Part shown: piece after piece, positions 25,577 to 54,904 of the stretch
Numbering within the stretch: position 1 is the stretch's first letter
Layout: every line of letters begins with the position of its first letter
Assembly (NCBI GenBank): GCA_020628475.1
Contig: JAHDFB010000010.1
Span: 1 to 64,000 of the forward strand
Direction of reading: 5' to 3'
DNA length: 64,000 nucleotides
Origin: Saprospiraceae bacterium
Lineage (GTDB): Bacteria; Bacteroidota; Bacteroidia; Chitinophagales; Saprospiraceae
Program-made: the position numbers and the translations under genes
The notes under the pieces: generated by a model
Told to the model about the DNA's origin: nothing
The model's database searches: none
Seen by the model: the letters and a program-made list of their open reading frames with translations, nothing else

Positions 25577-28500
25577 TTAAGCAATCGCCTCCGTCATCAC
25601 TGGATTATGATCGAAATGTCTAAAGTCTACTTGACTGACAGAAGACACTCCTTTTTCCTCCATGAATACCCCATATAAAACATCCAATTCTGCCATGGTA
25701 GCCTTATTATGAGTAACTACTAAAAATTGAGAATCTTGAGAAAATGCTCGAATAATATTTGTAAACTTCTGAACATTTTGATCATCCAATGGTGCATCCA
25801 CTTCATCAAAAATGCAGAAAGGTGCAGGTTTCAACAGATATAGACTGAAAAGTAAAGCCGATGCCGTTAAGGTCTTTTCTCCCCCACTCAACTGACTCAA
25901 GGATTGAGGTCGTTTACCTTTCGGCTTAGCGATAATTTCAATACCAGATTTTAAAGGATTCTCAGGATCCAGTAAGATCAGATCACAATCATCATCTTTG
26001 GTAAACAAGGATCTAAATACCGTAACAAAATGTTTACGAGCTTCTTCAAACGCTTCTAAAAACAACTTGGTCGCGGTAGTTTCAATTTCATCCATCGTAG
26101 CGATTAACTGATCTTTAGCCTGAAGGATATCTTGCTTTTGAACATCAATATTCTCCTTACGTACCAACATTTCATCGTAAGCCTCTACGGCCATAGGGTT
26201 TATATCGCCAAAATTGGACAATCGATTTTGCATTTTCTCCAATTGCAAAGCTTGCTCATCCAATTGGAAATCTTCTGGAATGTCAATATCAATGGAATTA
26301 ATTTCTTCAGAAAATTCAATGTTCACGCGTTGTTTAATACCTTGAATTTTGAATGAATAGTCGGATGCCTTGTCTTTGGCTCCATTAATGACAGATTGTA
26401 ACTCAGCAAACTCTTTGTTTAGTTGCTTCACCAACATTTCCTCTTCATTAATTCGATGCTTAGCATCAAAATAAGACTGCTCAATATCTCCTAAATCACT
26501 TTGTTCATTTTTTCGCTCCTTATACGAGTTTTCTAATAAAATCTTGACACGTTTATATTCATCTTCACGCTTAGACTGTTTATCAATTTCACGCTCTTGA
26601 GCAGTTAAAATAGCCTTTTTTTCAGCAAGACTTTCATTCAACTTTTCTGTATTAAAACCATTCTCTTTTCGTAAATTAAGAATGAGATTTTGTTGTTGTA
26701 ATTTAGAAATCTGCGCTTCATTCATCTCACGAGACAATACCGATAATTGCTCCGTTAGTTGATTTAATAATCCAGTTTGACTCAATTGAGGCAACAATAA
26801 ATGAATACTTTCAGCAATCTCTTTTTTACGCACCGCTAAGTCTTCAAGTTTTAAAGCATTCGCCTCTATTGTTTTTGTTTGTTCCAAAATGGAAGATTCC
26901 TGCTGCTCTAAAGATTGGTGCACATTATCAACAGATGCTTGTAATTTGAATTGAATCTTTCGCTTTTGATCCAATTGATTTTGAAAGTCTTTGATCTGTT
27001 TACTGAAATCTTGCTTGGATAAATTAGATTTTTTACGTTCCAATTCAGTGATGCTCGCTGATATGCTATTTAGAGAAATTTGAAGCGCATCTGCATCTTT
27101 TATCAGAGATTCTAATTTCTTTTTCCTTCCTATACGCTTACCTTCAAAAACACTGTTCGAACCTCCAACAATTTGAGCATTTCTCGTCAAAAAAGAGCCG
27201 TCATTTGCAACCAAAGAGATTTGATCAAAACGGTCGAGATCTGATCGGTTTGATGCATTAATTTGATACGTGTCAAATAAGATATAATCAATCAATGCAG
27301 CATACTTAGCATCAACTTCAATCAAGGACTTCATACTTGACAAGGGAACGTCATAAGAGCTTTCAAGACTTGGAATTCGATCTAAAATAAAAAACTTGGC
27401 CTTTCCACGGTTCTTATTTCTAAGTAACGAAATGGCTTCTAATGCCTCATCCATCGTGTCCACAATGAAGTAATCCAGATAGTCTCCCATGACCATTTCG
27501 ACCGCAGCTCGATCAGCTTCCTCGCAAGAAATCACATCTGATAACATGACCTTTTTTCGTTTCCACTCCTTATGCAGAAACTTAATCGATTCAGGAAAAC
27601 CTTCCAGTTTGTTAATCATACTTTTCAGTAGACTAATTTCATTCTGCTTGATATCAATTTTACGCTCGAGCGCTCTTTTATTCTTAAGCTCTTCATCGAT
27701 CTCAAGTCGTAATAATTCAATATTGTTTTTTTTGTCTTCTTCTGATTGTTGTAATTCAGACAATTCTTTTTGAATAACTATTGATTCTTTCTGAATCAAT
27801 TCCAACTGATCATTTTCTTTCTTTACTTTTTCTTGCTGTTCAGAAGCTCGTTCCTTTAAAAAATGAATAGTATGCTCCGATTGTTGAATTTTATTGAGCG
27901 TAATGGCATGCTCTTTTTCAACATGCAGTTGCTGCTTATCCAATTCAACCTTTTCTTGTTCCTTTTGCTCCGCCAAAGATTTATTGTCCTCATACTGAAT
28001 ACTCAAAGACTTATGTTTCTTCTGTGCTTCTTCAAAAATTGTATCACGATCACCTTGTTCAACCTCTTCGATGACAATCCGATCATTGGTATGACGGATA
28101 GATTCTTGAAGATCTAAAATCTTTTCTTCTAACAGCTGAGCCCTTCTTTGAAGACCTGCCACCTTGTCGCTGCTGTGGTTCATTTCATTTTGAAGAATTT
28201 CCTTCCGACTTTCTTGTTTTCGAATCGTATCCGTTAATGTACTTATTTTTTGTTGAAATAGACTAAGTTGTTTTTCATCATTGATATTTTTCAACTTTTC
28301 TTTTTCCAAAGCAGATTCTTTACGATCAATAGTCGCTCTGAGCTCGATATACTTAACGTTAGAGGCCGTAATTTCCTTTTCAATCTTGATCAATTCATCT
28401 CTCAGCGCGTTAATTTTGACTAAGTGAAACTGTAGACTAAGATGTTTATACTTTGATTTGAGATCCAAGTACTTTTTAGTGCGTTTTGCCTGTTTTTCTA

Positions 28501-29113
28501 AGCTTTTCAGATTTGTCTCGATCTCGTGCAATAAATCTTCCACCCGATCTAAATCACTCTGGGTCAATGATAGTTTACTAAGCGCTTCTCGTTTTCTGCT
28601 CTTATATTTAGATATTCCAGCCGCCTGCTCAAACATTTTTCTTCGAGCCTGATCTTTATCTTGTAGGATATCGTCTACCATGCCCAATTCGATAATCGCA
28701 TACGAATTAGATCCAACCCCCGTGTCAACAAGTAAGTTCTTAATATCCTTCAATCTACATATTACATCATTGAGCCGGTACTCACTTTCACCACTCCGAT
28801 ACAAAGTTCTGGAAACCTTGACGATATGATAATCAGATGGAAGTATTCCTTTATTATTCTCAAAAGAAATGGAGACCTCTGCTGTTGGAGATTTCTTTCG
28901 TTTACGAGTACCATTGAAGATAACATCCTGCATTTTTTCAAGACGCAGTTCTTTAGACTTTTGTTCACCCAGCACCCAGCGTATAGCATCAATAATATTG
29001 GACTTGCCACTACCATTGGGGCCAACGATACCGGTAACACTTTCATTGAAATGAATAACCGTATCCTTCGCAAAACTCTTAAATCCTTTTATCTCTAGAC
29101 TCTGTAACCGCAT
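25577..29113 (-). CDS. smc: Chromosome segregation protein SMC
   Basis: Walker A GPNGSGKSNIIDAIRWVLGEQKSKELR; hinge; LSGGEKTLTASALLFSLYLLKPAPFCIFDEVDAPLDD; ATG at 29113 (ORF track uses upstream TTG). Confidence 0.96.
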   Translation of the reverse strand: MRLQSLEIKGFKSFAKDTVIHFNESVTGIVGPNGSGKSNIIDAIRWVLGEQKSKELRLEKMQDVIFNGTRKRKKSPTAEVSISFENNKGILPSDYHIVKVSRTLYRSGESEYRLNDVICRLKDIKNLLVDTGVGSNSYAIIELGMVDDILQDKDQARRKMFEQAAGISKYKSRKREALSKLSLTQSDLDRVEDLLHEIETNLKSLEKQAKRTKKYLDLKSKYKHLSLQFHLVKINALRDELIKIEKEITASNVKYIELRATIDRKESALEKEKLKNINDEKQLSLFQQKISTLTDTIRKQESRKEILQNEMNHSSDKVAGLQRRAQLLEEKILDLQESIRHTNDRIVIEEVEQGDRDTIFEEAQKKHKSLSIQYEDNKSLAEQKEQEKVELDKQQLHVEKEHAITLNKIQQSEHTIHFLKERASEQQEKVKKENDQLELIQKESIVIQKELSELQQSEEDKKNNIELLRLEIDEELKNKRALERKIDIKQNEISLLKSMINKLEGFPESIKFLHKEWKRKKVMLSDVISCEEADRAAVEMVMGDYLDYFIVDTMDEALEAISLLRNKNRGKAKFFILDRIPSLESSYDVPLSSMKSLIEVDAKYAALIDYILFDTYQINASNRSDLDRFDQISLVANDGSFLTRNAQIVGGSNSVFEGKRIGRKKKLESLIKDADALQISLNSISASITELERKKSNLSKQDFSKQIKDFQNQLDQKRKIQFKLQASVDNVHQSLEQQESSILEQTKTIEANALKLEDLAVRKKEIAESIHLLLPQLSQTGLLNQLTEQLSVLSREMNEAQISKLQQQNLILNLRKENGFNTEKLNESLAEKKAILTAQEREIDKQSKREDEYKRVKILLENSYKERKNEQSDLGDIEQSYFDAKHRINEEEMLVKQLNKEFAELQSVINGAKDKASDYSFKIQGIKQRVNIEFSEEINSIDIDIPEDFQLDEQALQLEKMQNRLSNFGDINPMAVEAYDEMLVRKENIDVQKQDILQAKDQLIATMDEIETTATKLFLEAFEEARKHFVTVFRSLFTKDDDCDLILLDPENPLKSGIEIIAKPKGKRPQSLSQLSGGEKTLTASALLFSLYLLKPAPFCIFDEVDAPLDDQNVQKFTNIIRAFSQDSQFLVVTHNKATMAELDVLYGVFMEEKGVSSVSQVDFRHFDHNPVMTEAIA

Positions 29114-29119
29114 AGCCTG

Positions 29120-29127
29120 CAAAAGTA
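29120..29127 (-). promoter_or_regulatory. -7 box TACTTTTG, 6 nt from the smc ATG
   Basis: Minus-strand TACTTTTG-CAGGCT-ATG. Confidence 0.4.
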
Positions 29128-29228: not shown

Positions 29229-29258
29229 CTTACTAGATCACTGACATAATCTGTATTA

Positions 29259-29381
29259 GGGCGATCGAGCGTTACGCTTCAGGGCTCGCAATACTGCTCG
29301 GCTTCCATGAAATGAGCAAGTCTGCTCATTTATGGAATCTAGGCCTAGGGCCTACCCATTTCGCATCACTATCGCATGGAG
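29259..29381 (+). repeat. Dispersed intergenic element copy A
   Basis: GGGCGAT...TCACTATCGCATGGAG termini; internal hairpin TTCCATGAAATGAGCA-AGTC-TGCTCATTTATGGAA. Confidence 0.6.
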
Positions 29382-29675
29382 ATTTGATTTATCCGAAGAT
29401 CAATCCTCGACACCCTACATCCATGTATGAATTCCGGTCCAATCAAAATAAGTCGTGAAACCATGATAAGTTTTTATTAAATCTATAATGCCCCCTTAAG
29501 AAAATTGTCAATCCTAATACCTCATATTAAAGATAATTTTAATATTTGGATTAAATACAACCTCCACTACCATCCTGTCAAACAGGAAGTTACACAGGAA
29601 TTTTAAAATTCTTGTTCAATTCAGGAACGAAATCACCTGCTCATTACACTAATAAGAAAACTCAAAGCGCGTATC

Positions 29676-30326
29676 ATGCATAAAACCAAAGAAATTTACC
29701 CAGGAGCTTTCTACATATTTGAAAGTAAAGCAGCAGCAAATAGCAATTACATTGAAAATTTAAGAGAAGCCAAACAACTTCTGATATACGCTAACCATTA
29801 TTTGAAGTCCTACCTTAAAATTCATGACTATATCATAACTCGACATGGTTGGCAATTTGCAATAAGCATCAACAAGGATTTCCCTTCACATCAGAACCAA
29901 GAGCCATGGAGAGTTGTTTCCGAACGAATCCGATTATTTCTTTCAACTTATGTACGATACATCAATCATCATAGAAATCGCACCGGCGTATTGGTTCAAA
30001 AGAATTACATTAAATACTATTTTGAAACCTGGAAAGAGGCAAAAAGCCATCTAGACCGCATGAGAACACAACAAATCAGATTGTATCAACGAAAGAGAAA
30101 ATATCGAGGTTTGAAATTCCATTATAAAATTTCCAAAAAGAAGGAAATTGGATCCATATTCTTGTGTTCAAAAGCCTTGATAAAAATGAAATCGATACTC
30201 ATGGATGAATTGAGAATCCAACATTTATGGGCACTCAAGAATTTCGTAGGACCGAAATTGGTTGAAATCACCAAAAATCTCCATAAATCAACCAATCATC
30301 ACAAAACACACCAAAACTCCAGCTAA
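29676..30326 (+). CDS. Hypothetical protein, possible degenerate Y1/RAYT (IS200-like) transposase
   Basis: RIRLFLSTYVRYINHHRNRTGVLVQKNYIKYYF resembles the Y1_Tnp C-terminal half; HUH motif position reads ITRHGWQFAI; flanked by inverted copies of the dispersed element. Confidence 0.45.
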   Translation: MHKTKEIYPGAFYIFESKAAANSNYIENLREAKQLLIYANHYLKSYLKIHDYIITRHGWQFAISINKDFPSHQNQEPWRVVSERIRLFLSTYVRYINHHRNRTGVLVQKNYIKYYFETWKEAKSHLDRMRTQQIRLYQRKRKYRGLKFHYKISKKKEIGSIFLCSKALIKMKSILMDELRIQHLWALKNFVGPKLVEITKNLHKSTNHHKTHQNSS

Positions 30327-30480
30327 TCTCCCCCAATTTTCCTATAAAAATATCCCCCGATTCCGCATTAACCAAACTTACTCGCCAGCATTCCTCCAGC
30401 GAAACCACATGCCCTACCACCAACTCAACACTTCTCAGTTCCCTATTTACCCCCCCTCTTCTTCCTCCTATTTACATCCC

Positions 30481-30597
30481 CTCCGCGATAAAGATAGTAG
30501 CTGGCACGCGCACGCGTGATCCCGTAGGGATGAACTCGTGATACAGCGAATAGCTTGGCTCTCCGTTATTCGGTCATCGATGACGGAGAGATCGCCC
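30481..30597 (-). repeat. Dispersed intergenic element copy B (inverted relative to A)
   Basis: Reverse complement: GGGCGATCTCTCCG...GCTATTCGC...GCTACTATCTTTATCGCGGAG; CTCTCCGT/ACGGAGAG stem. Confidence 0.6.
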
Positions 30598-30626: not shown

Positions 30627-32462
30627 ATGAAATTGTGCATTGCGGAGAAGCCTTCTGTAGCAAAAGAAATTGCAAAATTGCTACAAGCAAATACGAGGAG
30701 AGATGGTTATTTTGAAAGCCCAAACTATGTTGTAACCTGGACTTTTGGCCATCTGTGCACCTTATTTACGCCGGAGGATTACGACCCGCTTTGGAAGAAA
30801 TGGCAACTCGATAGCCTACCTATGCTTCCAGATCGATATCAGACCAAAGTCATGCAAGATAAAGGGGTGCGCAAACAATTCGAGACGATCAAAAAACTCT
30901 GTCAAAAAGCTGATCTAATCATAAACTGTGGAGATGCCGGTCAAGAAGGAGAACTCATACAACGGTGGGTACTGAAACAAGCCAATTGCCAAAAACCACT
31001 TAAAAGACTGTGGATTTCTTCCTTGACGACAGAGGCGATGAAAGATGGATTTAGAAATCTGCAAGAAGGCTCTAATTTTGATAATCTTTATTACGCGGGT
31101 ATGTCAAGAGCAATAGGAGATTGGCTTCTTGGAATGAATGCCACACGATTATATACCTTGAAATACGCTGATTATGGAACCGTTCTGTCCATAGGTCGTG
31201 TACAAACACCTACACTGGCAATGTTGGTCAATCGATATTTGGAAATAGAACGATTCGTCTCAAAACCATTTTGGGAAATTGAAACCATCTTCAAAAACGT
31301 CCATTTTCGATGTACTGAAGGAAGATTTCTTGATAAAAGCAAAGCGGAAGCGGTGCTCGGGAAAATCAAACTTTCTGACTTTGAAATCAAGGATTTCGAG
31401 AAAAAGAAAGGGAAAGAATATGCACCCAAATTGTTTGATCTGACTAGTCTACAAGTGTTCTGTAACAAGTCATTCGGAATGACTGCAGATCAAACCTTGA
31501 AAACAGCACAAACGCTATACGAAAGGAAGCTTATCAGTTACCCAAGGGTTGATACCAACTACCTTCCTTCCGATCAATACAATAAAATACCGGGTATTTT
31601 AAAATCACTGACAAATTATCAGCAATTTACCAGTAAAATTTTAGCAGAACCTATCAAGAAAACTAAACGTGTTTTCAATGATAAAAAAGTGACCGATCAC
31701 CATGCTATTATTCCAACTGGACAACAAGCAGCTCTTGATGGAAACTTACTAAAGGTATACGAAAGCATCGTAAAGAATTTTATTGCAAATTTTTATCCAG
31801 ATTGTATCGTTTCCAACACGACCGTTTTTGGAATGGTGCAAGAAATATCGTTCAAGGCAAGTGGTAAAGAAATATTGGAGCTCGGATGGCGAGAGGTGAT
31901 TCCTCCTTCTAAAAGCGAAAAGAAAAAAGAAGACGGAGAAAATTCCAATCAAATCATTCCAGTATTTGAAAAAGGTGAAAAAGGTCCACATAAACCGCAG
32001 ATCATTGAAAAGAAGACGCAAGCGCCCAAGCCATATACAGAAGCAACTTTATTGAGAGCCATGGAAACAGCGGGTAAAAAAGTAGAAGACGAAGAACTAC
32101 GTGAATTAATGAAAGCCAACGGTATTGGGAGACCGTCAACACGTGCAAATATTATTGAAACACTGTTTAAACGCCAATATATAAAACGGGTTCGCAAAAA
32201 TCTGATCCCTACAGAAGTAGGAATAAAGCTCATCTCTATTATCGATAACCCATTACTTAAATCTGCCGAATTGACTGGGCACTGGGAACGAAAATTAAAG
32301 GAAATTTCCAATGGTAATTACAGTCCAAAAAGCTTCATAAATGAAATGAAGAGCATGTGCGATCAGTTAGTAACAGAGGTCCGAATGTCAAAACGAACGG
32401 ATCGAATATCCGCACCAAATAATAAGACTAAAAGAGCAAGAAAAACTAAAAAGAAAGCTTAA
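30627..32462 (+). CDS. topB: DNA topoisomerase III
   Basis: MKLCIAEKPSVAKEIAKLL, NCGDAGQEGELIQRWVL, SIGRVQTPTLAMLV, LISYPRVDTNYLP. Confidence 0.95.
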   Translation: MKLCIAEKPSVAKEIAKLLQANTRRDGYFESPNYVVTWTFGHLCTLFTPEDYDPLWKKWQLDSLPMLPDRYQTKVMQDKGVRKQFETIKKLCQKADLIINCGDAGQEGELIQRWVLKQANCQKPLKRLWISSLTTEAMKDGFRNLQEGSNFDNLYYAGMSRAIGDWLLGMNATRLYTLKYADYGTVLSIGRVQTPTLAMLVNRYLEIERFVSKPFWEIETIFKNVHFRCTEGRFLDKSKAEAVLGKIKLSDFEIKDFEKKKGKEYAPKLFDLTSLQVFCNKSFGMTADQTLKTAQTLYERKLISYPRVDTNYLPSDQYNKIPGILKSLTNYQQFTSKILAEPIKKTKRVFNDKKVTDHHAIIPTGQQAALDGNLLKVYESIVKNFIANFYPDCIVSNTTVFGMVQEISFKASGKEILELGWREVIPPSKSEKKKEDGENSNQIIPVFEKGEKGPHKPQIIEKKTQAPKPYTEATLLRAMETAGKKVEDEELRELMKANGIGRPSTRANIIETLFKRQYIKRVRKNLIPTEVGIKLISIIDNPLLKSAELTGHWERKLKEISNGNYSPKSFINEMKSMCDQLVTEVRMSKRTDRISAPNNKTKRARKTKKKA

Positions 32463-37239: not shown

Positions 37240-38766
37240 TTATCTTGGAATTAAGTTGAACTCTACTCTTCGATTGAGTGCGCGTCCTCTTAATGTATTA
37301 TTATCTGCTATTGGTCTCGATTCTCCATACCCTGCATAATTCATTCTTGCCGCTTTTACGCCTGCCCGAACTAAGAAATCATAACATGATTTTGCTCTAC
37401 GCTCAGAAAGATTTTGATTATTGGTAGCAGTACCTGTGTTATCGGTATGACCGCTTATCGATAGATTGAAATCAGGATATTTATTCATGATTCCAGCAAT
37501 TTGGTTTAAGATTCCTGATGATTCCGATTTTAACGAAGCTCTTCCTGAATCAAACTGAACGGCACGCATCGCCAATTCCAATACATCTAAATCTTCTTTT
37601 GATATCTCTGGACATCCATTATTTGCTACACTTCCAGCAGAGTTTGGACATCGATCTCGACTATCATCAATACCATCACCGTCCGTATCTGGGCAACCAT
37701 TATAGACAGCAATACCCGCTTTGTCCGGACATTTATCGGCAAAGTCAGCAACACCATCACGATCACGATCAGGACAGCCATTCGTAGAGGCAGGCCCAGC
37801 ATTATTTGGACATTTATCCACATCATCAGCAATACCATCATTATCCGAATCAAAGCTTGGACAGCCATCATTGGCCATATCTCCAGCTAAATCAGGACAT
37901 TTATCTTTATCATCTGGAACACCATCATTATCACGATCTGTAGAAGGACATCCCTTATTATCTTTAGAACCCGCTAGATTTGGACATTCATCATCCTTAT
38001 CGGATACGCCGTCACCATCACTATCTGGACAACCATTCAGTTTGACCAATCCTGCATAAGAAGGACAAGCATCTTCATAATCTGCTACACCATCTCCATC
38101 ACTATCCGGACAACCTTTTAAATCTTCTGGCCCAGCTACCTGAGGACATAAATCCAACTCATCAGGAATGCCATCGCCATCTGCATCATTTGGATCGGCT
38201 TTCTTTTTCTTCGGTTTCTTCATAGTGTCGTCTCCACTTCCCAATAAATAAACAAAACCAATACCATGCTGTAAATTATCACGGTCTGTTGAGAACGACT
38301 TTCTAAAGGTAGATTCCCAATTAATATATGCTCGATCGCGAATACGGAAATTCAATCCTAATCCAACAGGTGCTTGCAAATTAAAAGAACCTGTTCGTTC
38401 TCCTACACCACTTAAACCAGCAACTAAATATGGAACAACCACACTTTCAGGCTTAAAAAATTGATATTGAATATGCGCCCCTACTCCAAAGATGGTCTTG
38501 TGGTAATCCTCACTTTGAATATGACTGGACGGTACACCAACATGAATCGGAATCACCAAATTCAATGATTTCTGAACATTGTAATTAAGACCAATTTCAT
38601 AGCCGGAATGATAATTTCTAAGAGCTGTAATGGTTCCACCATTCTGAGATTGATAATCCAAGAATAACTTTTTGAAACTTAGACCCACTTTATTATCCTG
38701 ATTTTGAGCATTGACAGAAAATGCAAGACCCAAGATCATTAAAGCGATTAGAAAGTTATTTTTCAT
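37240..38766 (-). CDS. OmpA family outer membrane protein with thrombospondin type 3 repeats
   Basis: Repeated D(x)DGDGVxDxxDxCPxxAGxxxxxGCP; C-term ISGHTDNTGTATNNQNLSERRAKSCYDFL. Confidence 0.93.
   Translation of the reverse strand: MKNNFLIALMILGLAFSVNAQNQDNKVGLSFKKLFLDYQSQNGGTITALRNYHSGYEIGLNYNVQKSLNLVIPIHVGVPSSHIQSEDYHKTIFGVGAHIQYQFFKPESVVVPYLVAGLSGVGERTGSFNLQAPVGLGLNFRIRDRAYINWESTFRKSFSTDRDNLQHGIGFVYLLGSGDDTMKKPKKKKADPNDADGDGIPDELDLCPQVAGPEDLKGCPDSDGDGVADYEDACPSYAGLVKLNGCPDSDGDGVSDKDDECPNLAGSKDNKGCPSTDRDNDGVPDDKDKCPDLAGDMANDGCPSFDSDNDGIADDVDKCPNNAGPASTNGCPDRDRDGVADFADKCPDKAGIAVYNGCPDTDGDGIDDSRDRCPNSAGSVANNGCPEISKEDLDVLELAMRAVQFDSGRASLKSESSGILNQIAGIMNKYPDFNLSISGHTDNTGTATNNQNLSERRAKSCYDFLVRAGVKAARMNYAGYGESRPIADNNTLRGRALNRRVEFNLIPR
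37600..38190 (-). repeat. TSP type 3 calcium-binding repeat array
   Basis: About seven D-rich DxDxDGxxD..D.CP units in the translation. Confidence 0.85.
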
Positions 38767-40399: not shown

Positions 40400-43300
40400 C
40401 TACAACTTAATGATTTTCTTAATACCTCTAAATGCATCATTGGTGATCATCAGATAGTAATTCCCAGATGGCAGATTTGGCATTAAGAATGTTTTTCTAT
40501 AGCCATCATTATAACGTTGTACATCATGTGTCGCCACTATTTTCCCTTGTTGATCCATCAAAATAACTTTTACACTACTCGGTCCTTCTGGATATTCAAG
40601 GTGTAATTGAAACAATCCTTCATGAGGATTTGGCTTGATTACAAATAATGGATCATTCGAAATATCTTTAGTCGATACCAACAGGTCAATCGTTTCTGTA
40701 TATGTACAATTCGGATCGTACTGTACCACAATCTCGTACATTCCAGCACCGAGATTTTCAAAGATCGGGTTCGTCGAAAAGTTAGCTCCACCATCAATCG
40801 AATACATCGTATTTTCATTACTCATCGGGAATGTAATGATGATCGAACCGTCCATAGCTCCAGCTGCTGACTCTTCTTGAAACTCAACTTCCGCTTCCAA
40901 ATTACAGGTAACAGGCACGCAGAAATCTACCGTCCATTCTGATCCAAAATTGACATTATCCAATTCTACAACCACATCATCCCCTTCTCGAATTTCAAGA
41001 AATGGATTTCCGCCGAAACCCCAGCCATCTCCATAGCTATCCAATAAAATGAAGGTGTAACAAGCTTCTGGTAAACAAAAATCCAAATCTTCGACGGCTG
41101 CAGGACCAGTATATCCTCCACCTTCCAACACGACTTGACCTGCCATATCTAAGATTTGCCAACTCGTCTCATTCGAAAATGCGTCTGATTGGAATGAGAT
41201 ATTCATATCCAACAATTCATCATTGTATTCTAGATTTGTTTCTAATGTATCATTACTTGTAATCTCATCGATCACACCGTTTATGTTACTCGCATAAAAA
41301 GAAATCACATTATTTCCTACGGTCAATTCCACATCTTCAAAAACGATAGCTTCTGAAGCTTCCAAGGGTAAATTCGTAGTGATATCATTGGATTGAATCA
41401 ACATTCCATTTAACACAAGATTTGCTGTATATGAAGTCACCGTCTCAAAACCTTTATTCGTAAATATCGCCTCATAATCGATGATCTGATTACAAATAAA
41501 CGTTGGATTATTGTTACTCTCAGAAGTACTCATATCCGTATTCGCCAAATGTCTAATTTTTGATCTCAGGGTATCATTCCCATTATTTTCATCGCCATCC
41601 AAGCTTACGTACAAGGTGAAGTCATAGGTGTCAAAAGCCTCTATATCCACCATATTCGACAAAGTGATTTCTACCGAATTGAGCGGTTCAATAACATCTG
41701 GATGTAAACCAGATTCTAGCACATTACCTTCAAATTCAACGCCCCAATTTACGCCCTGTATCTGCTTGAATCCAGGATTAGATATTTGAATTTTCACTTC
41801 TTCCATGTTGGTATAACCAGAACCAGTGGTTGGAGAAGCTATTAAATCAGCTTTTGCATCAATCGAATCTCTTCTCAATTTGATCGCCGTAAGACGAGTG
41901 CCCCAATCTTCATTGGCTGGCATGTATTCACTGGTAAACCAAAATGTCTCATCGTCCACAGGATCTAAAGTCATCGAGAAATAATCCCCCCAACGTAATC
42001 CAGGGCTTGGTTGCGATCCCGCAACAATTATATTTTCACCAAAGGTCATGACACCCAATTCATCCGTAGCCGTTCTTGCGGTAATACCTACACTAGGATC
42101 TACCTCTTCGCCTGCAGCGGCGTATCCCATGATAATATTTCCTTTACTATCCTGGCAGATAGATCCCATAAATCGGCTGGTACCGTCATTTAAGCTAAAG
42201 GTACCTTCTTGATAAGTTGACCAATTTTCATCTCCTTGCTTACGCAATTCCATCCATCGAATACCAGCTTCATCATTTCCAGTAATATCCACGGTAAAAT
42301 CCAAAACGATGGATTCGTAGGTTTCGAAATTTCTATACTGAATTTTATTCATGATAATCGCAGGGATAACGGACAAAGGCCCGCCATTAGACAGGGTAAT
42401 ACATGAAAAGATACCATCGACGCACATATCCAATTCAAATGGCGAAGTGGCAATATCCACGGGATCAGTCAGGATCGTATTTTCGGGAGTTTCGAAATCT
42501 GGAATAATTTCAAAATATTCAATTTTATCGCCATCCGGCGTCCAATCATCATCTACCAATCGAAATGCAGCAAAATTCGTAGTAGCCGGTGGAGCGATTT
42601 TTCCAGAAAAATTCATTGGAGAAGCAAATTCTATAATATTGGTTCCTCCGATTTTAGTGATACCATCAATCGCAATATAGGTAACATCTTCTTCTCCTGC
42701 GATCATCGCTTGTTTGTCGATAGCATATACTGGATTAAATCCTTGAAATTCGTTGGTAGATAAATACCAGGCATCGTGCCAATTTCCAAATTTTGGATAA
42801 TCCGGAAAAGTAGGTGTGGAAATTTCATAGATATGGTATGAACCCATAGGGTCTTCCGTTTCCGAGACCGCCATAAGTACGGCATTTTCTTGAATAAACT
42901 CCGTTAGTACCCAACGATTTTCTAACCGATCAAAATAGATAATTGGATCTCCGACACCGACACGGTTAATTTCCGCCCATAATGGTCCCAAACTCGTTTC
43001 CAATACTAAATCGCCATTGGTTTTATCATAGATATACAACAAAGAGGAATTCGGCGCATTCGTAGACATTAAATAGTATTTCAAACCAATATCCCCATTA
43101 CAATCTGGTGGAGCAATACCATTTACATCCGAAGCTTGAATACCATCAACATCCACAAGAATTTGAAATTCTCCCGTTTGAGATTTGGTCAGCTGGCTTT
43201 GCTTTTTCACTAATGGATCTCCTGCGAGAGGTAAAGATCCAGCTACTTTTGGAAAAGGGCCATGATTCTTGAAATTGGGAATGGTTTTTAAATCTTGTTT

Positions 43301-53143: not shown

Positions 53144-54904
53144 ATGAATGTACGTCTACTATTAATGGCTCTTTTTAGCTTTCTATTTTTGACAGGCTAT
53201 AGTCAGAGCATTGGAATAATTGGTGACGCCACTCCTGGTGGTTGGGATGCAGATACTGACATGACACAGGATCCTGACAACGCCGACCTATTTACTATTG
53301 ACATCACATTGACAAATGGAGCCGTTAAATTCCGTCAAGATGACGCATGGGACATCAACTGGGGGTCTGTAGATTTCCCTACTGGTACTGGAGAACAAGG
53401 CGGTGCTAATATTCCTGTATTTGCAGGTGATTATTCCGTTTGGTTTAATATTGCCACAGGAGAATATTCTTTCACCGTACAATCGGATATTGGAATTATC
53501 GGAGATGCTACTTCCGCCAATTGGGACTCTGATATAGATATGTATCAAAATCCTGATAATCCTGACAAATATTTCACCATCCTTGATTTAACGGTCGGAG
53601 AAGCCAAATTTAGACAGGATGATGCTTGGGATATTAACTGGGGTAGCTCAGATTTTCCGACTGGAACAGGTGTTATGGGAGGTGATAATATTCCCGTTGA
53701 CAAAGCTGGTGAATACATGATTGATTTTGATAAATCAACAGGTGAATATTCTTTCGGTGAAGTTATTACCTTTAGTTCTATTGGAATTATTGGTGATGCA
53801 ACTCCTGGCGGATGGGATAGCGATACCGATCTAATGCAAAGTGCTGCTGATCCAAATGTTTGGTCTGCGAATCTTACCTTAACTGATGGTGGTGCTAAAT
53901 TCCGAGCAAATGATGAATGGGTCATTGATTGGGGTGGAACGGATTTCCCTTCAGGCGTTGGTGTACAGGGTGGTGACAATATTCCAGTTGTAGCGGGAGA
54001 ATACAAAGTCAGTCTAAACACGGAAACAGGAGAATATAACTTCCAAGAAATTGTGGATTACGCTACTGTTGGTATCATTGGTGATGCCACACCGGGTGCA
54101 TGGGATAGTGACACGGATATGGAAAAGGACGAAATGGATGGTTCCATGTGGTCTTTACGTATTATCTTAACAGATGGAGAATTGAAATTCCGAGCAGATG
54201 ATGATTGGGCCGTTAATTGGGGATCTGGAGATTTCCCAACTGGAATAGCTGAACAAGATGGTGCTAATATTCCAATTCCTGCAGGAGAGTATATTATTAG
54301 CTTCAACAGTGTAACTGGTGAATATAATTTCGAAGAGATTGTTGTATACTCAACGGTTGGTATAATAGGGACTGGATCTCCGACCATGGGTTGGGATGAT
54401 GACACCGATATGATTAAAAATGCGGATAACGAGTTCCTTTTTGAATTAGAAGCCACTTTAGTAGATGGAGAAGTTAAATTTAGAGCAGAAGATGATTGGG
54501 CTGTAAATTGGGGTGCTGAAGAATTCCCTGACGGTGTTGGTACTCAAGATGGACCAAATATTCCAGTTACTGCTGGAACCTATGCAATATCATTAGTCAC
54601 TGATACCGGAGAATATAGTTTTGCTACACCAGATGCAACGAAAGAATTTTTAAATCCTGCTTCTGTAAAACTATATCCGAACCCAGCTGTCGGAACCATT
54701 CGATTAGATGTGAATGATGATCGACTTAGTGGAGATATACAAGTAACGATCTTAAATATGAACGGTAAAATTGTTGCAGAAAATTCAATAAATACCTTTA
54801 CTAATAATTCTATCGATGTTCAACACTTACAAGCTGGACATTATATGGTTAGACTTCAGGCAGAAAATGCTTTAGTCGGTAAAAAATTAACTATTGTAAA
54901 ATAG
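53144..54904 (+). CDS. Secreted protein of five SusE/F-like modules with T9SS type A sorting domain
   Basis: Five copies of (I/V)GIIGDATPGGWDSDTDM...KFRxDDxWxxNWGxxDFPTG...GGxNIPxxAGxYxxxxxxxTGEYxF; C-term LYPNPAVGTIRLDV. Confidence 0.88.
   Translation: MNVRLLLMALFSFLFLTGYSQSIGIIGDATPGGWDADTDMTQDPDNADLFTIDITLTNGAVKFRQDDAWDINWGSVDFPTGTGEQGGANIPVFAGDYSVWFNIATGEYSFTVQSDIGIIGDATSANWDSDIDMYQNPDNPDKYFTILDLTVGEAKFRQDDAWDINWGSSDFPTGTGVMGGDNIPVDKAGEYMIDFDKSTGEYSFGEVITFSSIGIIGDATPGGWDSDTDLMQSAADPNVWSANLTLTDGGAKFRANDEWVIDWGGTDFPSGVGVQGGDNIPVVAGEYKVSLNTETGEYNFQEIVDYATVGIIGDATPGAWDSDTDMEKDEMDGSMWSLRIILTDGELKFRADDDWAVNWGSGDFPTGIAEQDGANIPIPAGEYIISFNSVTGEYNFEEIVVYSTVGIIGTGSPTMGWDDDTDMIKNADNEFLFELEATLVDGEVKFRAEDDWAVNWGAEEFPDGVGTQDGPNIPVTAGTYAISLVTDTGEYSFATPDATKEFLNPASVKLYPNPAVGTIRLDVNDDRLSGDIQVTILNMNGKIVAENSINTFTNNSIDVQHLQAGHYMVRLQAENALVGKKLTIVK
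53210..54640 (+). repeat. Five tandem ~93-97-aa SusE/F-like repeats
   Basis: Repeat starts at 53210, 53489, 53780, 54068, 54356 (periods 279, 291, 288, 288 nt). Confidence 0.9.

Follow-up and report, generated by a model that had tools for sequence, protein, structure and literature searches.

A family of Y1-fold proteins without HUH and Tyr motifs shares a promoter-like box with competence genes in some Saprospiraceae

The locus and the Y1 kinship of its ORF

The window analysed here is a stretch of 64,000 nucleotides from the start of contig JAHDFB010000010.1 of a Saprospiraceae bacterium (assembly GCA_020628475.1). The locus under study lies between genes for an SMC protein and DNA topoisomerase III and contains the following features:

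25577..29122, minus strand: SMC protein, left flank
29256..29385, plus strand: element A, a dispersed intergenic element
29505..29511, plus strand: TTGTCAA motif, found by eye
29523..29546, no strand: dyad CATATTA-N10-TAATATT, a putative regulator site matching 13 of 14 consensus positions
29624..29654, plus strand: promoter-like regulon box GGAACGAAATCACCTGCTCATTACACTAATA, common to the family copies, comEC, ssb, radC and DUF2851 of the genome
29676..30326, plus strand: ORF of the HUH-less, Tyr-less Y1-fold family, 216 aa, pI 10.1, charge +27
30274..30480, plus strand: C-rich, G-poor ORF end and 3' region with an abrupt skew flip
30481..30597, minus strand: element B of the original prediction, with no relation to A by alignment or model
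30627..32462, plus strand: DNA topoisomerase III, right flank

Elsewhere in the window, seven copies of a 50-nt repeat (spacing 81-87 nt) were observed at 37634-38181 within the minus-strand ORF 37240-38766, and a 165-nt direct repeat in four degenerate copies at 53309-54622 inside ORF 53144-54904. An Rfam search of the window found nothing.

The ORF was present as the original prediction had described it, and the remote Y1/RAYT kinship proposed there was borne out by structure as well as by sequence. An AlphaFold model of the ORF, built on the alignment of 48 family members (pLDDT 83.7, pTM 0.75), was compared with the PDB by Foldseek. The top match was 4er8, the structure of TnpA-REP in complex with a REP hairpin (E 7.7e-5, probability 1.00), followed down to rank 29 by 28 further chains, all of them Y1 transposases; the match to 4er8 was modest (TM-score 0.39 by query and 0.49 by target, identity 10%). 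An alignment with Y1 proteins covers the length of the ORF. L096, a catalytic Y1 protein that itself matches PF01797 (E 3.7e-5), recovered the window ORF by sequence (E 6.8e-5) as well as other family members, the best of them on contig C22 of this genome (E 8e-10), and the family profile reached catalytic Y1 proteins, with L200 as the best (E 1e-15); E-values from these small searches are relative. PF01797 itself, the profile that the original prediction had proposed as a check, gave no match to the window ORF. Searches of Pfam, NCBIfam and PHROGs with the 48 members returned scattered chance-level matches only, and a PDB sequence search with the family gave no match. Owing to the Foldseek matches and the sequence links to catalytic Y1 proteins, the ORF is placed in the Y1 fold superfamily: it belongs to a previously undescribed family descended from RAYT/IS200-type Y1 transposases. 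A viral origin of the family was considered and rejected, as IMG/VR yielded no viral relative for the patterns used.

Where catalytic relatives have PNHFHLL, the window ORF reads TRHGWQFAI. The missing HUH motif and the loss of catalysis suggested from it extend to the entire family: in one alignment, none of the 48 members has the HxH (HUH) or the YIHxN motif, whereas both are present in all 19 catalytic relatives, which come from the same order. The replacements at the HUH position vary by clade (HGW, DGW, EGY, SGY) and the residue at the Tyr position also differs between clades; therefore errors of sequencing or alignment do not explain the loss. Judged by these defining features, the family is predicted not to be an active RAYT or IS200 transposase. 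Seven positions are invariant in the family (E27, G58, S82, R86, N97, R102, and G104). The gene had been called degenerate, which in the sense of decaying does not apply: every full-length copy has an open reading frame, and selection on the family is purifying, with dN 0.030 and dS 0.212 among recent copies (15 non-independent pairs; dN/dS about 0.14). The proteins are strongly basic (pI about 10), with a mean charge of +17 to +25 versus +7 in the catalytic relatives.

The original prediction had further taken A and B for inverted copies of one element that flank the gene as in a REP/RAYT arrangement. Element A is real and dispersed, since a covariance model built from A plus three further copies of this genome as seeds found 17 full-length matches at E<0.01, the four seeds included. 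Elements of this type, which include copies at G000:C25:3036, C93:21669, and C39:64037 (G000 being this genome), are about 100-130 bp long with the conserved ends GAGCGTTACG and CATCACTATCGC and are not in Rfam. Neither alignment nor model supports B as a copy of this element. The alignment of A with B covers 11 nt with a score of 17, inside the shuffled range (mean 15.4, maximum 23), and the covariance model does not find B. The word GGGCGATC occurs once on each side of the ORF (plus strand at 29259, minus strand at 30590-30597), and two such words per window are at chance level, being reached in 22 of 100 shuffles. With A and B failing to align and a strong A-type element beside the window copy only, the REP/RAYT arrangement is not supported; no flanking or dispersed cognate REP elements were found with the other family copies, which are without a strong A-type neighbour. 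Element A is a neighbour and not a general partner of the family.

Copy number and insertion history

The original prediction had treated the ORF as one gene, perhaps domesticated. This is replaced by at least 24 dispersed copies with a putative competence-type promoter in this genome (G000, a MAG 61% complete), namely 22 full-length open copies and 2 partial ones. At least 32 copies, N-termini counted, were found in G002 of the same genus, at least 9 in G007 of another genus (g5), and one to three each in G001 and G003; the counts are lower bounds from MAG data. The other genomes among 149 relatives gave few weak matches, catalytic Y1 proteins among these, and a contig search of genomes with alignment A2 had matches in Saprospiraceae MAG-37 and MAG-38 only. 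In the tree, the copies form a single family (support 100) that expanded separately in G000 (21 copies), G002 (15 aligned copies) and G007 (9 copies) and that also includes old, diverged solitary copies (L064, L083, and L093). A 782-aa fusion in G002 (L068) was rejected, as it arose from a run of N in a scaffold gap.

A flank test with chimeric queries revealed that the SMC gene adjoins the topoisomerase III gene without a family copy in G001 and G003, whereas the window has the order SMC-copy-topoisomerase. Further copy-free sites correspond to L050 (in G002), L063 (in G003 and G002), and L062 (in G002). The copies thus appear to be lineage-specific insertions; the empty sites might in principle be losses, but insertion is the simpler explanation. 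Copies of a recent burst in G002 start at a common left edge, about -305 relative to the box (12 of 16 copies), and end near +155 from the stop (three copies), which gives a unit of about 1.1 kb. A 3' hairpin was seen in the recent G002 copies only, and conserved terminal structures or target duplications of the unit were not identified. PF01797 matches above the cutoff were absent from the genus, including two genomes 96% complete, which leaves no evident catalytic Y1 helper.

The C-rich end of the ORF has counterparts in other copies. A sharp flip from G-rich to C-rich, G-poor sequence was observed at the ORF ends in three genomes, and the last 50 nt contain 4-5% G and 32-35% C in G000 and G002. 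The tail may be a site of the Rho-utilisation type. Pairing of this tail over a long range with the G-rich body was rejected, since a copy's own tail did not pair better than a swapped one in G000 and G002; in G007 own tails were only slightly better.

A box and a dyad shared with competence genes

A box with the consensus GGAACGnAATnnnnnnTTnrTTACACTAATA, or a close variant of it, lies just before the ATG of every full-length copy in G000. The search for this box across G000 gave 28 matches, whereas reversing it as a control gave 1. Of the 28, 23 lie upstream of family copies and 4 upstream of radC, ssb, DUF2851, and comEC; the remaining one is probably a chance match. In G002 the good matches other than those at family copies precede DUF2851, comM, radC, and comEC, while G003 has the box before comEC, ssb, and DUF2851 and G001 before ssb. 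Good matches were restricted to this genus among the 61 genomes searched. In genus g5 (G007) the family box differs and reads GGATATTTTnnnnGTTCnnGACACTTA. Its search in G007 gave 15 matches versus 0 in the control, and these lie at 9 family copies, comM, comEC, comF, DUF2851, and two tandem non-coding places. The box has diverged between the genera in step for the family and the competence genes, and this is the strongest single argument that both form one regulon. Altogether, the box was found at comEC in four genomes and at comF in a single one, but at neither dprA nor pilus genes. A cis element common to comEC and other transformation genes, as expected of a competence regulon, is thus present.

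The DUF2851 (PF11013) genes with the box (L118, L150, L169, and L181) come from four genomes of two genera, and the gene product may be regarded as a candidate transformation protein. The two non-coding places of G007 (L231:1300-1850 on contig C58) have tandem boxes at 40795 and 41082 on the minus strand and no ORF after them. The stretches that follow are strongly folded (z -3.3 and -4.5 versus base shuffles), have no Rfam match and are candidate competence-regulated small RNAs.

At a constant distance upstream of the box lies a dyad with the consensus CATATTA-N10-TAATATG, which is also found upstream of comEC, comM, radC, and ssb in the genus. With offset and gap fixed, a dyad score of at least 11 was reached by 7 of 12 competence-set genes (0.94 expected) and by 19 of 37 family copies (3.2 expected). 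Because the competence genes have it too, this AT dyad is read as a regulator site; its reading as a transposon end, in the form of an upstream AT hairpin, was rejected as the main one, since comEC, comM, radC, and ssb are preceded by it at an identical gap and offset. By eye, TTGTCAA was also noticed upstream of most copies as well as of radC, comEC, and DUF2851 in G000.

Interpretation and comparison with known systems

The analysis directly supports the kinship with Y1 proteins, the absence of both motifs, the number of copies, their common box, the polymorphism of the insertions and purifying selection. We consider it probable that this non-catalytic, Y1-derived, lineage-expanded family is now part of a natural-competence regulon in some Saprospiraceae. 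Each copy would be a single-gene unit with its own competence box, often with the regulator dyad, and, if the box is a competence-active promoter, would be switched on together with ComEC, SSB, RadC, ComM, and ComF. Y1 proteins bind ssDNA hairpins, as in the 4er8 and IS608 structures. From fold and charge, DNA binding by the family protein is most likely: the very basic protein would bind, without cutting, the ssDNA delivered by ComEC, or hairpins therein, and most likely coats, sorts or bridges it. Acting with SSB, RadC, and ComM, it may protect, sort or recombine the incoming strand; a role of the family in transformation is inferred. The unit of about 1.1 kb would spread as a block, possibly via the same incoming ssDNA. 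RadC, ComM, Ssb, ComEC, ComF, and DprA belong to the Pasteurellaceae competence set for uptake and processing (PMC10269479), and in Riemerella transformation ComEC, DprA, and ComF are essential whereas a YifB/ComM mutant is reduced (PMC8459023).

With 9 to 30 or more copies, the family is unusually numerous for a protein with a purely accessory role, which points to selfish spread. Both aspects could be combined: we tentatively propose, with rather less confidence, that the dead Y1 descendant may be a competence-borne mobile gene whose unit carries the host's competence operator and promoter, so that the protein would be made only during ssDNA import and its ssDNA binding would both shape transformation and spread the copies. 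A purely selfish element that rides on competence, with a protein serving its own copying, expressed only when ssDNA is plentiful and of no gain to the host, would spread via host recombination or illegitimate integration. Three lineage-specific expansions, empty sites in congeners, the recent G002 burst of units with common left (-305) and right (+155) ends, and a genus without a catalytic Y1 protein above the cutoff able to mobilise the unit all agree with this; however, conserved terminal structures and target duplications were not identified and several old, solitary, diverged copies (L064, L083, L093) persist, and we regard it as unlikely.

We give little credence to an active transposase with a reconstructed catalytic centre, one that would use another nucleophile or metal site and still move its own unit. 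The discrete, recently amplified unit, the purifying selection on its gene and the seven invariant positions would suit such an enzyme, but the invariant set has no His or Tyr and does not resemble a known nuclease site, and the HUH and Tyr positions hold different residues in different clades. Nor is it at all likely that the box marks a DNA-damage or general stress regulon instead of competence: SSB, RadC, and ComM do have repair roles, yet the box stands at comEC in four genomes and at comF in one, both of which serve DNA uptake, and the gene set fits known competence regulons (PMC10269479, PMC4630621). The domesticated RAYT with A and B as cognate REP-like elements, as originally predicted, draws on a Y1 fold nearest to a RAYT and on A being a dispersed structured element. 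Since B is not a copy of A, the window copy is the only family gene beside a strong A-type place, and HUH and Tyr are absent, it is highly improbable, and the cognate-REP reading of A and B is largely refuted.

The favoured reading, that of a non-catalytic family within a competence regulon, bears on proteins that have been passed over, as surveys of Y1 proteins exclude those lacking HUH and Tyr as non-functional (PMC6006769). In the present case such proteins account for most of a putative regulon, and purifying selection acts on them. Keyword searches of the open-access literature retrieved no paper linking Y1-like proteins to competence and none describing competence in Saprospiraceae; the box provides a concrete putative competence cis element for a Bacteroidota family lacking a report there, and DUF2851 is added as a candidate transformation gene. 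These observations suggest that mobile DNA and natural transformation are linked in a new way and open to test the use of mobile-element proteins in DNA uptake, or their riding on it.

Compared with RAYT / TnpA-REP proteins (Y1 class 2, IS200/IS605-related), the family has the same Y1 fold and length, and the catalytic proteins closest to it within the order have NHFH and YIHxN(P), as in the Bacteroidetes RAYT subclass 2.6 (PMC6006769). Unlike RAYTs, it is without both catalytic motifs in every member, has a competence-type box and no cognate REP found, and numbers 9 to 30 or more copies per genome versus a RAYT mean of 1.8. It resembles IS200/IS605 TnpA elements in its small, dispersed single-gene units of a Y1-fold protein, whereas it is non-catalytic by sequence, most of its copies are old and diverged and some recent, and its unit carries host-type regulatory sites inside. 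As with Sxy/CRP-S in Pasteurellaceae and the transformation genes of Riemerella, comEC, comF, comM, radC, and ssb stand under one cis element; in contrast to these regulons, the element is a dyad plus GGAAC...TTACACTAATA with no known regulator, and most box sites precede transposase-like paralogues. TldR, derived from TnpB, is a nuclease-dead transposon protein adopted by hosts. The family is likewise a transposon protein without catalysis that may keep nucleic-acid binding, but it differs from TldR in fold and role and is a multicopy expansion tied to DNA uptake genes.
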